Shown: piece by piece, positions 4,759 through 17,511 of the stretch
How positions within the stretch are numbered: the stretch's first letter is position 1
Layout of the letters: the number at the start of each line of letters is the position of its first letter
From: a virus
Strand: one strand, 5' to 3'
DNA: 21,243 nt
Virus record (IMG/VR): IMGVR_UViG_3300009419_000124
Coordinates: 1 to 21,243 of that record
Position numbers and translations under genes: made by a program
Notes under the pieces: model-generated
What the model saw: the letters and a program-made list of their open reading frames with translations, nothing else
Database searches by the model: none
Told to the model about the DNA's origin: nothing

Positions 4759-4766
4759 TATTTATA
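4759..4766 (-). promoter_or_regulatory. T4-type late promoter for gp18
   Basis: The minus strand reads TATAAATAG, exact for a T4 late promoter, 57 nt upstream of the sheath start. The TAA stop of the homing endonuclease gene lies inside this box (ATA-TAA-ATA). The predicted start near 4753 gives a normal leader of about 51 nt, the only long one among the promoters here. Confidence 0.82.
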
Positions 4767-5271
4767 TTTTTTCTGTTTTGCGTGATTCCCATTGCTTTTT
4801 AGCATTTTTAGAAAGCAGTTCTTTATTACTTATTTGGGATAATTTCATTTTAGCTATAGTCTCTGCCGAGTGTTTTCTTCCCAACATACCCTTAGACCTA
4901 TAATTGTTTTTCATTTTACATTTAGCTTCAGCCGAATGTTTTCTGCCTTTGTTAGCTTTAGATATTTTAGAACGGTGTTGTTCCGTAAAAATTTTACATA
5001 TAAATTCGGAATTTCCATTGGTTTGATTGTAAAAATTGGGATCATTTTTAGCATCAACCGCAGTTAATAGCTTTTGTTCCAATTTAATCATATCATCGGC
5101 ACTACCATGTGCAATAATGAATCTTTCAAAATTATCTGGATTTTTTCTGTATTCTTCAAGCATGGGTTTACTTGAACAGATATATCCGTCATCTACCGAC
5201 CCCTTATGCCAACCAATGTAAAGACAATTGGTAGTCTTATTCTTCCAGGAATATACAAATGCTTCTTTCAA
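4762..5271 (-). CDS. GIY-YIG homing endonuclease with NUMOD3-type repeats
   Basis: This 169-aa protein has an N-terminal GIY-YIG nuclease domain: VYSW at residues 6-9, LYIGWHKG at 17-24, GYICSS at 29-34, a candidate catalytic Glu65 in KLEQKLL, and FYNQTNG at 80-86. Two NUMOD3-like DNA-binding repeats follow (KGRKHSAEAKCKMK at about 108-121 and LGRKHSAETIAKMK at about 130-143). Free-standing enzymes of this kind (T4 Seg family) cut related phage genomes lacking them and spread by gene conversion. The frame has no ATG near its beginning; the best start is TTG at 5269-5271, with about 3 nt of leader from a late promoter. The gene is more A/T-rich than gp17 and gp18, fitting recent arrival. A conserved catalytic Arg is not obvious. 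Confidence 0.88.
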   Translation of the reverse strand: MKEAFVYSWKNKTTNCLYIGWHKGSVDDGYICSSKPMLEEYRKNPDNFERFIIAHGSADDMIKLEQKLLTAVDAKNDPNFYNQTNGNSEFICKIFTEQHRSKISKANKGRKHSAEAKCKMKNNYRSKGMLGRKHSAETIAKMKLSQISNKELLSKNAKKQWESRKTEKI

Positions 5272-8113: not shown

Positions 8114-9244
8114 TTAAAGAGCGGCAATTCTTGTTTTAAAGTCGGCAAAATCTGTACTATCTGCAACCAATGTTTTTAATCCCGATATGCTAATAAATTG
8201 CGATTCACCAGTGCTGTCTAAGATGTCTCCGGCAGCAGGTAATGTTAAATCACCATTGGTATCAAATGTCCAATTTTTAGTATTTGTATTGGTACCAATG
8301 ACAACATCGCCGCCGTTCTTTTCAATTTTAACAAACTGATCATCGTCACCCAAATAGATATCGGTTGTTACAGAATTGCCCGAGATTAAATGTACGTGAC
8401 TGTGTTCCGAGTTGGTAATACCATTGTTAGTTACGGTAACATAATTACCGGTAGGTAACGCATTAGATTCAAAATTGTAATATAATGCCGGATCATTTTC
8501 TACCTGAATATCATTAGAGCGAGTGCCATCAACTCCTGTTATTGTAAAAGTGAATTCCGTGATAGTGCTATTAGCCGGTATTGTCCAGGTGACTTCTTGA
8601 GAATCTGCTTGTTGAAGACCTGTGAAAACCACACTGCCCGTGAGCGATCGACCCAAGGATTGTTGAGTTACCCCCGTTCCCGTAATTTCATAATTAACTG
8701 TTCCAAAATAAGCCCAACTTAATAAATTAACAGAAATTGTAATTGGGCTACCGTATTCAATATAACCACTGGATGTCACAGACCAAGTTGATGAAGTTGG
8801 ACGAATCACTAAACTCTGTCCAGCAGCTGCGCCTGGTGGAGTTATGACTATTGTGGTAGCCGTATCGGTAATGTTGGCACCTTCAGGAAATGTAAGTTCA
8901 CCAGTGGCATTAAGTACAACTTCGTGGCTACCGTTGATTAATCTATCTTCCGCTGCACGGGTACCTTGAGCACCAGTAATACCCTGCAGTCCTTGAATTC
9001 CTTGAGTGCCTTGTGCACCTTGGGTGCCCGCGCCCGTAATGCCCTGAGCGCCAGTGATACCTTGGAGTCCTTGAATACCCTGAGTTCCTTGCGCACCAGT
9101 AATACCCTGGACGCCCTGGACGCCTTGTACACCTGCATTATACAGCTCGGTAAAATTGGCATTTACCTTGGTGAATGCCGTACGAAGCGGGTCACCATTT
9201 TTATCATTTGCTGCTGTTCCTATTGAAATAATCTGTTTTGCCAT
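8114..9244 (-). CDS. collagen-like virion structural protein inserted between gp14 and gp15
   Basis: The 376-aa product starts with [28 protein letters not shown] (residues 8-35), an N-terminal module seen in many phage fibre-like proteins. A short Gly-X-Y tract of about 19 triplets follows (residues 38-94, mostly [12 protein letters not shown], no proline), with one phase slip near residue 72 (GAGTQG). The remainder is Thr/Ser-rich and beta-like, ending with a [15 protein letters not shown] motif and a short terminal helix. There is no S74 chaperone domain. It begins one base after the gp14 stop and ends three bases before gp15, so it is co-transcribed with neck genes. A neck-attached fibre or whisker is my inference; exact function is unknown. 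Confidence 0.85.
8953..9135 (-). repeat. collagen (Gly-X-Y) coding repeat of the gp14-gp15 insert
   Basis: Degenerate 9-nt units encode [12 protein letters not shown] triplets. The plus strand shows repeated 'ccttg' and 'ccctg' blocks every 9 bases. It is the shortest of the four collagen tracts in the window. Confidence 0.8.
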
Positions 9245-11938: not shown

Positions 11939-13417
11939 TTATCCCTTCTTTTCTAATCTTTCAAGACGGACTAAAATGTCCTTTACCGATTCAATGAGTA
12001 TTGCGCTAATGCGACTGTAATCGACGGAGTTTGGTTTACCTGCGGTATCAAGTGCAACGACCTGAGGTAATACCCGTGCAACTTCTTCGGCGATAACACC
12101 GATTTCGTTTCTCTTGGAATTGTCAACAAGGTCGTACTGAACGCCGCGCATATTCTTCACGATGTTTGAAGCATTTGCAAGAGTTACGACATTCTTTTTG
12201 TACCGAATGGAAGATGTCGAATTGTAACTTCCGGCGGTAACAGAATTGAAATTTACATCATTATAGGTGTTTAAGTCCTGATTGGCGCCGGGACCCGCTG
12301 GACCCTGAGAGCCTTGTGCGCCTTGAGCTCCATCGGAACCATTCGATCCATTCGTGCCGTTTGTTCCATTAGTTCCGGCGGTTCCCATAGTACCCTGAGC
12401 ACCATCTGATCCATTAGATCCAGCCGATCCCATTGCACCTTGTGCGCCTGTAGATCCTGTTGATCCAGTAGATCCCATTGCACCTTGCGCACCAGTTGCT
12501 CCAGTTCCGCCCGTGGCACCAGTGGAACCTACGGCTCCTTGAGCTCCTGTGGAACCTGTTGATCCAGTAGATCCAATTGAACCTTGGGCTCCTGTGGAAC
12601 CTGTTGATCCAGTAGATCCAATGGCTCCCTGAGTTCCTGTCGATCCAGTAGATCCAATTGAACCTTGGGCACCCTGCAAACCTGTGCCACCAGAAAATCC
12701 CATTGTGCCTTGAGCTCCTTGAGTACCGGTACCGCCGTTTGAACCGACTGTACCTTGAGCACCTTGGAGACCCATTGCGGCATATGCTCCGGAAGTTCCT
12801 TGAATACCTATGTAACCTTGAATACCCTGTGTTCCCTGAGCGCCTTGAGTTCCTAAAGTACCTTGTGTACCTTGAATACCTTGAGTTCCCTGAGCACCTT
12901 GAATTCCTTGACGCCCTTGAATGCCTTGAACGCCTTGGGTTCCTTGCGTACCTTGAATACCAGTGATACCTTGAATTCCTTGGATACCCTGAGTTCCTTG
13001 TGAGCCCTGAAGACCCTGTGCTCCTTGAATACCGGTAAGCCCTTGGATCCCTTGGACGCCTTGTGCGCCAATCCCGTTTTCGATAAGATCCTGTTGTGCG
13101 TGTGCAACTTCAATTAGAAGTGGCACGACCTTATCATACTGGAGCGTAAAATAATTTTCTCCACTTAAAGAAGAAGCCACTCCTGTGGGGCTATAATAAG
13201 TGTCGAATGGTGCAAGCTCAAGAATCTCGGGCAGGACAGTTCCTACTTCAGTGGTGAGAAGACCGACCTGAAGTGTTTCCGTATCAAACCCAAAGCTACC
13301 AGCCGTGGCATTACCTCTGTAATAGTACCCATGGATTGCATTGAGTTTGGTAAGCGGATTCGTGATTAACGAAACATCCGTCTTAAGACGTGGATCCGAA
13401 TAGTCTTGACGGCTCAT
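11939..13417 (-). CDS. collagen-like fibre with S74-type chaperone domains at both ends
   Basis: The 492-aa protein has an unusual three-part layout. Residues 7-108 resemble a peptidase S74 intramolecular chaperone: SDPRLKTDVSLITNPLTKLNAIHGYYY (7-33), VGLLTTEVGTVLPEI (51-65) and a helix YDKVVPLLIEVAHAQQDL (94-111). Residues 117-377 are Gly-X-Y collagen repeats, first Gln-rich then Ser/Thr/Asn-rich. Residues 379-402 are a linker, and 403-492 a second S74-type domain (SIRYKKNV, GVIAEEVARVLPQVV, SVDYSRISAILIESVKDIL). S74 domains normally sit at fibre C-termini, assist trimerisation and often self-cleave before a Ser. The start ATG overlaps no other gene and lies 5 nt after the DUF7936-like stop. 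Probably a tail or whisker fibre. Confidence 0.88.
   Translation of the reverse strand: MSRQDYSDPRLKTDVSLITNPLTKLNAIHGYYYRGNATAGSFGFDTETLQVGLLTTEVGTVLPEILELAPFDTYYSPTGVASSLSGENYFTLQYDKVVPLLIEVAHAQQDLIENGIGAQGVQGIQGLTGIQGAQGLQGSQGTQGIQGIQGITGIQGTQGTQGVQGIQGRQGIQGAQGTQGIQGTQGTLGTQGAQGTQGIQGYIGIQGTSGAYAAMGLQGAQGTVGSNGGTGTQGAQGTMGFSGGTGLQGAQGSIGSTGSTGTQGAIGSTGSTGSTGAQGSIGSTGSTGSTGAQGAVGSTGATGGTGATGAQGAMGSTGSTGSTGAQGAMGSAGSNGSDGAQGTMGTAGTNGTNGTNGSNGSDGAQGAQGSQGPAGPGANQDLNTYNDVNFNSVTAGSYNSTSSIRYKKNVVTLANASNIVKNMRGVQYDLVDNSKRNEIGVIAEEVARVLPQVVALDTAGKPNSVDYSRISAILIESVKDILVRLERLEKKG
12290..13068 (-). repeat. collagen (Gly-X-Y) coding tract of the double-S74 fibre
   Basis: This tract encodes about 260 residues of Gly-X-Y repeats. 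The half nearer the start codon is Gln-rich (GIQ/GTQ), the other half Ser/Thr/Asn-rich (GST/GAQ/GSN/GTN). The boundary near 12800 suggests two repeat families joined together. Confidence 0.85.
12543..12632 (-). repeat. tandem 45-nt repeat inside the collagen tract
   Basis: Two adjacent 45-nt copies (12543-12587 and 12588-12632) are nearly identical and encode the 15-residue period [15 protein letters not shown]. Further diverged copies flank them. The period is five collagen triplets, pointing to recent unequal duplication. Confidence 0.8.
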
Positions 13418-13422
13418 TTAAT

Positions 13423-13773
13423 TTAAACAGAAGGAGACCAAGGGAATTTACCAGAAGCAACTTCGGTTTCTGGATTCTTCTTGGCATCAATCTGTTTCTG
13501 AATCTGTTCATTCACGTGAGCTTCGTAGCTACCGGTAACAACAGCTTGAATCCAACCGAGAACCTGAGTTTCGGTAAGGGCTTCAAATGAGGTGAAGGTT
13601 GCTGGATCCATATCGGCTGCCGGTGTGAATGGAGTTGCGCCAGAGAATTCTCCGACAAGACCATTTTCATCGGTGCCGATTTTCTTCCAGTATGTTTGTG
13701 CCACAAAATCGGTAAGAGTACCGATGTTCTTTTTCTTGAGGGAAGTAAGTTCCCAGGTGTAAGTGATTGCCAT
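13423..13773 (-). CDS. DUF7936-like small structural-region protein (paralog 1)
   Basis: This 116-aa protein starts MAITYTWELTSLKKK and includes AQTYWKKIGTDENGLVGEFSGATPF (about 28-52), LTETQVLGWIQAVV (about 71-84) and an ending GKFPWSP. It belongs to a family of about 110-120-aa proteins often encoded beside fibre genes in aquatic T4-like phages; I recall it as DUF7936, from memory. Its role is unknown. A second copy lies at 15201-15563. The start ATG (13771-13773) lies 14 nt after an AATAAATA box. Confidence 0.82.
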   Translation of the reverse strand: MAITYTWELTSLKKKNIGTLTDFVAQTYWKKIGTDENGLVGEFSGATPFTPAADMDPATFTSFEALTETQVLGWIQAVVTGSYEAHVNEQIQKQIDAKKNPETEVASGKFPWSPSV

Positions 13774-15200: not shown

Positions 15201-15563
15201 TTAATTAGTTGCCCAAGGGAAATCTTTTGAGTCGAGCGATGCAGAAGTCTTTGGAGCTTTACCTTGGTCAATCGAGGCTTGAATCTGAGTGTTGATGAAA
15301 GCCATATCCTCATCAGTAATTGTTGCTTGAATCCAAGTAAGGACCTGTGTCTCGGTCAGAGAATTCAATGGAGTAAAATTGCCAGAAGCACTCAATGCTG
15401 CAATTTCTTCTAAATTAAACTTTGTGCAGCCTGGATAACGCCCTGTGGCTCCCGTTTCATCGGTGCCAGTTTTCGACCAGTGAATTTCTGTAACGGCATT
15501 CTGAACACCCAATTTTGACTGGGTGTGCATCATATCAATCTTCCAAGTATATGTAATAGCCAT
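15201..15563 (-). CDS. DUF7936-like small structural-region protein (paralog 2)
   Basis: This 120-aa protein starts MAITYTWKIDMMHT and includes VTEIHWSKTGTDETGATGRYPG, LTETQVLTWIQATI and a C-terminus SKDFPWATN. It aligns along its length with the gene at 13423-13773. I chose the ATG at 15561-15563 over an upstream in-frame one because it matches the paralog N-terminus and lies 4 nt after the previous stop. Function unknown; it is co-transcribed with fibre genes. Having two copies next to different fibres suggests each may serve a specific fibre, which is speculation. Confidence 0.82.
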   Translation of the reverse strand: MAITYTWKIDMMHTQSKLGVQNAVTEIHWSKTGTDETGATGRYPGCTKFNLEEIAALSASGNFTPLNSLTETQVLTWIQATITDEDMAFINTQIQASIDQGKAPKTSASLDSKDFPWATN

Positions 15564-15567
15564 AAAA

Positions 15568-17511
15568 TTATTTATTCTCCAATTTGCTGAGGCGGTCCAA
15601 TACTGCGGCAAGTTGTTCCTTCAGAGATACAACTTCCTTTGCAAGTTCAACTGCGGAAGCCATGGCGGCATTACCGTATGCCACAGAAAGAGTCTTAAAG
15701 TCATCGGTGGCTTCAATAACTGCTTCCGGAAGTAATGGGCGCAATGATTGAGCAGAGACACCGACCTGGCGCAGTTTCTCACCATCAATACGGGTATAGG
15801 TACCGACCTTTACCTTGGCAAGTTCTTCAACATAATTCTTTGGTAAGTCGGACCAGTCTTTCTTGAGCCGTTCATCGGAGTACGCGGTGACGTTGCTTGA
15901 TGCTTTGATCGAATAAGCCATACAAGAACCGAACCCACCGTTGATGGCGACAATGAGCCCGTGTGAATCCAGGTTACCAGCAATACCACCGGCATTTGGA
16001 TGCGACCATGCAATACCGTAGAGATTATTGATACCGCCGCCAGCGGTGAGTTTGTAGGAATCTCCCATTGCGAACACACCTTGGAAGATGGTCGAATTAT
16101 AAACACCAACTACGGAGTGGCCATAATTCTCATCAATATAGAGCCAACCTTTGTTCGATATTGTTCTTAAAACGCTAGACGAATTTGGATTAAGATAATA
16201 TGACGTATCATCGTTATCGTAAAAAATTGGACTTCTGCAACTTCCGTAAGCCCAAAAATTTGCTGAAGAGTCAAATTGTCCTTTAGTGCTATTTCCTACT
16301 CGGAAACCTACTAGACTTTCAGACATTAAATAAACATTTCCGCCAGCATAAACACCGGGGTAATTATAAGCGGCTCCAACTCTCACAACCGCTCCGGTAG
16401 ATTCAGGATTACTTACTATAATACCAGATGTATTTTGAATACTAAAGGTACATGAGCCACCACAGAAAAAATTAAAACTAGATGTTGGATCTAGATAATA
16501 ACCTGTATTATTACTATCATAGAAAATTGGTGCGCGCCAAGAAGAATCTGATTGACCGTAACCGCTTGTCCAAATTTTTGGATCGCTTTGTCCAATAGTT
16601 GCATGAATCGCACCTGCTGCTGCTACATACAATCCCCAATCGCCAGTTTTGCCGCCTCCCCAAAAATTTGAATGTGAATATCCAATGCCATACATGTTGG
16701 AGAGACCCGCATCGATTGGATTATAAGAACTGCCAATTGTATAAATCGGATTGCTTTTAGTAGAATTATCTCCAACGTTATTGTATGTTCCTTCCAACCA
16801 ACCAGCCACCGATGTGCTGCGACGAATCGGAGTGCTATAAGTATTATTTCCCGTCCATGTCTGGTTATTTCCAAGAATTGTTGCACCTGAAGTTCCCTGT
16901 GCGCCTTGAGCTCCAGTAGAACCTGTGCTGCCAGTTGCCCCAGTAGAACCTGCTGCGCCCTGAGTGCCATTGGTTCCGTTTGTGCCGTTTGCACCCGTAA
17001 TACCTTGGCGTCCCTGGATACCCTGAATACCTTGTGTGCCTGTCGAACCTTGAGTTCCAAGTGTGCCTTGGATACCTTGAATGCCTTGAATACCTTGAAT
17101 ACCTTGTGCGCCTTGAGCGCCTACCGCACCCTGAGCACCGAGCGTACCTTGCGCTCCGGTAATACCTTGAATTCCTTGGATACCTTGCGTACCCTGAGTT
17201 CCTTGAAGACCTTGGGTACCTTGCGTACCCTGGACTCCTTGAATTCCTTGGATGCCTTGAACACCTTGTTCACCTTGAAGACCTTGGGCGCCTTGTGTTC
17301 CCTGAGTTCCTTGCGTACCTTGAATACCTTGGACTCCTTGGGTGCCCTGAGCTCCTTGAAGGCCTTGGGTACCTTGAGTGCCTTGGATACCTTGAGGTCC
17401 TTGAACACCGGCATTGATTGACACCCAATAATTACCATTCCACTGCCAGCTCTTACCATTATAGCTGTAAATGTCGTTGGTGAGTGGAGAATTTGGAAAT
17501 GAAAGTGCCAT
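15568..17511 (-). CDS. collagen-like fibre with C-terminal S74 chaperone
   Basis: The 647-aa protein opens with a short attachment-like module ([26 protein letters not shown], residues 4-29) shared in pattern with the next upstream fibre. Residues 35-209 are about 58 Gly-X-Y triplets, mainly GIQ/GTQ/GAQ, with proline only once (GPQ at 38-40). Residues 210-544 form a beta-rich region with two copies of a motif ([AS]PIFYDxxxTxYYLxPxS) known from other phage fibres. Residues 545-647 are an S74 intramolecular chaperone with [24 protein letters not shown] and a terminal coiled coil. If cleaved like related endosialidase or L-shaped-fibre chaperones, cleavage would fall before Ser545. It is probably a trimeric tail or whisker fibre. 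Confidence 0.92.
15569..15576 (-). promoter_or_regulatory. variant late-promoter box (AATAAATA) before DUF7936-like paralog 2
   Basis: The minus strand reads AATAAATAA and contains the TAA stop of the S74 fibre. The predicted start site falls on the ATG of the next gene (15563). One mismatch from the T4 box. Confidence 0.4.
16885..17409 (-). repeat. collagen (Gly-X-Y) coding tract of the 647-aa fibre
   Basis: This tract has about 58 triplets, largely [12 protein letters not shown], with the C-terminal third changing to Asn/Ser/Thr-rich triplets (GTN, GST). The stretch at 17092-17115 is identical over 24 nt to 19955-19978 in the next fibre gene. Confidence 0.85.

Follow-up and report, generated by a model that had tools for sequence, protein, structure and literature searches.

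The window analysed here is the whole 21,243-nucleotide stretch of IMG/VR record IMGVR_UViG_3300009419_000124, from a T4-like virus of bacteria, and it contains a collagen-like fibre gene whose product carries an S74 chaperone-type domain at each end. The 492-amino acid ORF lies at 11939–13417 on the minus strand; an earlier note had given the right coordinates but no strand. The stop-to-stop frame is also 492 amino acids long and begins with the Met, and an in-frame stop abuts the ATG on its 5' side, so the longest possible leader before Ser7 is six residues (MSRQDY; residues 1–6, 13400–13417, minus strand). Cleavage before Ser7 would indeed free only these six residues, as the note had stated. 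The N-terminal part reads MSRQDY-SDPRLK...NPLTKLNAIHGYYY...VGLLTTEVGTVLPEI...YDKVVPLLIEVAHAQQDLIENGI-GAQGVQG. Behind the leader, all on the minus strand, follow an S74/ICA domain with a Ser7/Lys12 dyad (residues 7–116, 13070–13399), the last helix of which (residues 94–116, 13070–13138) runs into the collagen via a conserved GIG junction; a collagen-like tract chiefly of GxQ triplets and then GST/GAQ repeats (residues 117–377, 12287–13069); a short fibre tip, ANQDLNTYNDVNFNSVTAGSYNST (residues 378–401, 12215–12286); and a second S74 domain, SSIRYKK..., with a Ser402/Lys407 dyad (residues 402–492, 11942–12214). Approximately 87 collagen triplets separate the two S74 domains, and the PF01391 collagen model covers this stretch from residue 117 onwards (E 1.8e-37), which identifies the product as a phage collagen-like fibre. 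By position, the C-terminal S74 is a conventional removable chaperone that is probably cut off before Ser402. S74 matches were found at four places in the record, two of them inside this ORF.

PF13884 matched residues 7–64 on their own at 28.3 bits (curated cut-off 22; E 2.2e-6) and matched the same ORF again at residues 402–454; the genome scan placed the N-terminal match at 13226–13399. An AlphaFold (AF2) model of residues 1–140, built from an alignment of the N-terminal domains with the C-terminal S74 domains of fetched loci, had a mean pLDDT of 85.9 and was confident to approximately residue 110. In this monomer model, the last helix begins at residue 94, and about 2.5 heptads separate Tyr94 from the first collagen Gly. 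The helix was drawn onwards through residues 117–133 with low confidence (block means 52–72), and this part was left uninterpreted because it belongs to the collagen tract. Foldseek PDB matches 1–11 were all ICA/S74 structures, including the MyRF ICA (7dc3, E 6e-6), endoNF (3gw6), and the GA-1 chaperone (3gud), and the profile recovered S16 gp37, MyRF, and other fibres by sequence. The dyad, with its spacing of +5, is invariant in the family alignment and aligned with known S74 domains. By profile and predicted fold, the N-terminal domain is therefore S74/ICA and not a chance resemblance. The note's proposal of two S74 domains flanking collagen, the first at the extreme N terminus within residues 1–110, was borne out by the Pfam matches, the predicted fold, and the reading frame, as was its view that the first copy is not a classical removable C-terminal chaperone: it begins at residue 7, and approximately 376 residues follow it.

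A few small genes separate the fibre gene from the gp13-gp14 neck genes downstream of it. Two small DUF7936-like genes sit beside the fibre genes of the window (13423–13773 and 15201–15611, both minus strand; the second assigned by eye alone), and one of these two overlaps the end of a 647-amino acid fibre gene. Between gp14 and gp15, a further collagen-like protein (8114–9244, minus strand) has a weak, below-cut-off match to the N-terminal domain of T4 gp9/gp10, and an ORF between the terminase and tail sheath genes (4762–5271, minus strand) resembles, by eye, a GIY-YIG homing endonuclease. The T4-type late promoter motif TATAAATA occurs four times on the coding strand (841, 4759, 5280, and 11055, minus strand) and once on the other, five occurrences against 0.75 expected; none in the window lies directly before the fibre gene.

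A single-sequence search of IMG/VR returned no relatives, so a DNA pattern spanning the S74-collagen junction was needed. Relatives were found among the listed IMG/VR matches to this junction pattern, and with a home-made S74 profile, a peptide-based search, and a tighter pattern. At least five further IMG/VR contigs carry the S74-collagen-S74 layout at the same place beside gp13: L093/L131 (553-residue frame), L036 (1102 residues), L078/L132 (730 residues), L133/L134 (702 residues, near-identical to L078), and L135, the end of which falls inside the N-terminal S74. A C-terminal S74 follows the collagen in each relative contig. The shared gene order is glycine-rich/DUF7936-type genes, the fibre gene, small genes (one Cys-rich), and then gp13; the gene directly upstream of the fibre is DUF7936-like in the window and L093 and belongs to another family in L036 and L078. 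Ser7, Asp8, and Lys12 are invariant across all complete N-terminal copies, and the junction GIG.QG between the last helix and the collagen is kept in all family members. A short leader always precedes the Ser and ends in an acidic residue plus Tyr or Phe, with varying sequence and length. In L093, the S74 is not preceded by an ATG, and translation would have to begin at GTG. Two contigs with similar gp13 genes differ at this place. The first (L324, gp13 98% identical) has a free-standing 92-amino acid S74 ORF (772–1048, MDSIRYKKNV...) of the C-terminal type and without collagen, just upstream of the Cys-rich gene; this ORF is either the remains of a gene or a chaperone in its own right. The second (L327, gp13 85% identical) has a sulfotransferase-like ORF, assigned by eye, at 518–1358 and no S74 or collagen ORF there.

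The N-terminal S74 is under purifying selection. Nei-Gojobori dN/dS for this domain was 0.086 between the window and L093, a rough value because dS is high and near saturation, 0.095 between L036 and L078, and 0.056 between L093 and L135 (half domain), giving a range of 0.06–0.10; C-terminal domains gave 0.03–0.13. Between L036 and L078, identity was 90% in the N-terminal S74, about 23% in the tip (an approximate figure, since the L078 tip boundary takes in some collagen), and 68% in the C-terminal S74. This contrast has the appearance of the constant-base/variable-tip pattern of adhesive fibres, but it comes from one pair, as the window and L093 differ evenly (79%, 88%, and 82% identity, respectively). 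A quick tree (77 S74 domains, 99 columns) separated the N-terminal copies from the other domains by a branch with SH-aLRT 90, which is no more than suggestive of a single clade. Their neighbour was the C-terminal S74 of Pseudomonas phage Milchi, whereas the S74 domains of the other fibres in the window lay apart from them. The C-terminal S74s of these proteins fell elsewhere, at positions that differed between the two subfamilies.

Among approximately 320 fetched sequences, 120 of which were listed matches of a start-codon survey picked for an ATG shortly before SDxRLK, a second profile found 157 S74 domains that end near the C terminus. The exceptions were L216, with 102 residues after the S74, and L321, a weak internal match; an N-terminal S74 was seen in the window/L093/L036/L078 family only. 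The tighter helix-to-GxQ pattern found five stretches in IMG/VR, all of the window-fibre family, and none in 84,980 species genomes; because it is tied to GxQ triplets and to certain helix codons, it would overlook collagens of other types. Relaxing the pattern to Gxx added no members. The phage collection has 66 records with a match to the S74 domain, and the nine records with a similar S74 that were opened all had it at the C terminus. In one fibre gene locus, from Synechococcus phage Sf-FS3 (L006:4333–5661), two 2OG-Fe dioxygenase genes, one annotated as prolyl 4-hydroxylase, directly follow the S74 fibre gene. No alignment to the junction query crossed into collagen in the phage collection, although BLAST low-complexity filtering could hide the collagen part of the query, and a synteny survey around gp13, in which many contigs were short, gave no further N-terminal S74. 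In phage C48C1, the nearest by terminase, neither S74 nor collagen was visible in the protein at the corresponding position. The open-access literature searched yielded no account of an S74 placed N-terminally to collagen. These sampled sets thus contain no large known family with this architecture, which the note had named as a point to survey. The sequence comparisons indicate that the N-terminal S74 is genuine, that a few relatives have conserved it, and that it is very rare in the rest of the samples surveyed; what is new is the arrangement, the domains themselves being already known.

Our preferred explanation, to which we assign a probability of roughly 0.6, is a trimeric collagen-like virion fibre in which the two S74 domains have different jobs and the N-terminal copy is a permanent cap, nucleator, and probable anchor. 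The C-terminal S74 would act as the usual intramolecular chaperone, folding the tip before its probable removal. The N-terminal S74 would fold and trimerise as a permanent module, its last helix forming a three-stranded coiled coil that passes straight into the Gly-X-Y tract, fixes the chain register, and nucleates the triple helix at the N-terminal end of the collagen. This S74 would be kept on the mature fibre at the virion-proximal end, and any self-cleavage at Ser7 would trim just the short leader. Phage fibres normally carry their virion-binding module at the N-terminal end, so an S74 retained there is probably also an attachment cap. The window's other collagen fibres have different N-terminal modules at the same position (MALSFPNSP... 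and MAIDFPTSP...). Virion anchoring is suggested by this position and by the contrast between L036 and L078; permanent cap and virion anchor, two of the roles put forward in the earlier note, would both fit the data and are mutually compatible. The purifying selection on the N-terminal domain and the conserved helix-collagen junction also speak for this explanation. Against a purely structural cap, the Ser7/Lys12 dyad is kept although a cap would not need it, but these residues are near-invariant in all S74 domains; the shortness of the helix before the collagen, about 2.5 heptads, is a further point against. In published systems, the C-terminal coiled coil of the MyRF ICA is reported to be the main force of trimerisation (PMC8326128), the ICA is required for trimer formation (PMC3742443), the T5 chaperone likewise ends in a central triple coiled coil (PMC4690869), and an E. 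coli prophage collagen protein forms a dumbbell with an N-terminal trimeric coiled coil directly before the collagen and a trimeric C-terminal cap (PMC3368898). By analogy, the two S74 copies could serve as N-terminal trimeriser and removable tip chaperone, respectively. More tentatively, the chaperone may have been turned round, so that it comes first in the chain, nucleates the collagen behind it, and stays as the attachment cap, possibly with self-cleavage of the leader as an assembly checkpoint.

Because the dyad is kept, the leader may be self-cleaved, and trimerisation might trigger a cut before Ser7, with loss of the leader acting as a maturation signal, either a quality check or a new Ser N terminus for docking. 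The invariant Ser7, Asp8, and Lys12 and the ever-present leader with its acidic residue and aromatic ending would suit such a cut, as would MyRF, in which cleavage needs the dyad and trimerisation and is independent of the upstream stalk (PMC8326128). However, almost every S74 domain conserves the same catalytic residues, which makes them unspecific as evidence of cleavage; endoNF stalk residues join in the reaction, whereas the window protein has no stalk, and leader sequence and length vary. We consider this explanation unlikely. Docking of another fibre or virion protein could instead be the main role, making the domain an end-to-end connector with nucleation secondary. The conserved base and variable tip of the L036/L078 pair, the attachment modules in the same position of sister fibres, and the adjacent gp13/gp14 genes are consistent with this, but no partner was identified and the directly upstream genes differ between subfamilies, and we regard it as still less likely.

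The N-terminal S74 probably arose from the C-terminal S74 of a long tail fibre, given its resemblance to such domains (45% identity to that of Milchi), and the earlier note had suggested that it might be left over from a fusion with the chaperone of an upstream fibre. An upstream fibre would have lost its body, leaving a functionless chaperone joined to the collagen gene. This is very improbable, since the domain is kept at the same locus in five other contigs at dN/dS 0.06–0.10, has no disruptive changes and a complete predicted fold, lies behind a gene that differs between the two subfamilies, and groups apart from the S74s of the window's other fibres. An artefact of the start codon or reading frame, with the S74 belonging to another protein and not translated with the collagen, could be argued from the absence of a clear Shine-Dalgarno sequence before the window ATG and from the GTG needed in L093, but is scarcely credible: the frame is single and uninterrupted with codon-level selection across the domain, the in-frame junction is conserved in six contigs, and the stop just upstream excludes a longer protein.

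As for the proposed permanent cap, the accepted view of S74/ICA domains is that they sit at the C terminus, help the upstream part of their protein to fold, and are then discarded. The N-terminal S74 is like those of endoNF (3gw6), T5 pb1, the GA-1 neck appendage (3gud), and S16 gp37 (6f45) in profile, predicted fold, Ser-Lys dyad, and terminal helix. In those phage fibres, the domain trails the protein that it folds and is released, whereas the window copy precedes everything except a six-residue leader. The MyRF ICA (7dc3) is the closest solved fold, and there the ICA trimer is followed by more polypeptide, to which it stays joined after cleavage; however, MyRF has a large upstream DNA-binding part that is released, and the window protein has nothing sizeable upstream and collagen downstream. 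T4 fibritin (wac), a trimeric fibre encoded before gp13, combines a coiled coil with a C-terminal foldon; its likeness to the window fibre, which is also encoded near gp13 and predicted to be trimeric, is one of position. In E. coli prophage EPclA/B (PfN-PCoil-Col-PfC), collagen lies between trimerising end domains, as predicted here, and a trimeric coiled coil sits directly N-terminal to the collagen, as proposed for the window fibre, but the end domains (PF08400 and PF06820) are unrelated and include no S74. An S74 at the N terminus would be naturally suited to nucleate a phage collagen from that end, and a conserved copy with nothing upstream to fold uncouples trimerisation from chaperoning and cleavage, offering a simple test case for both.
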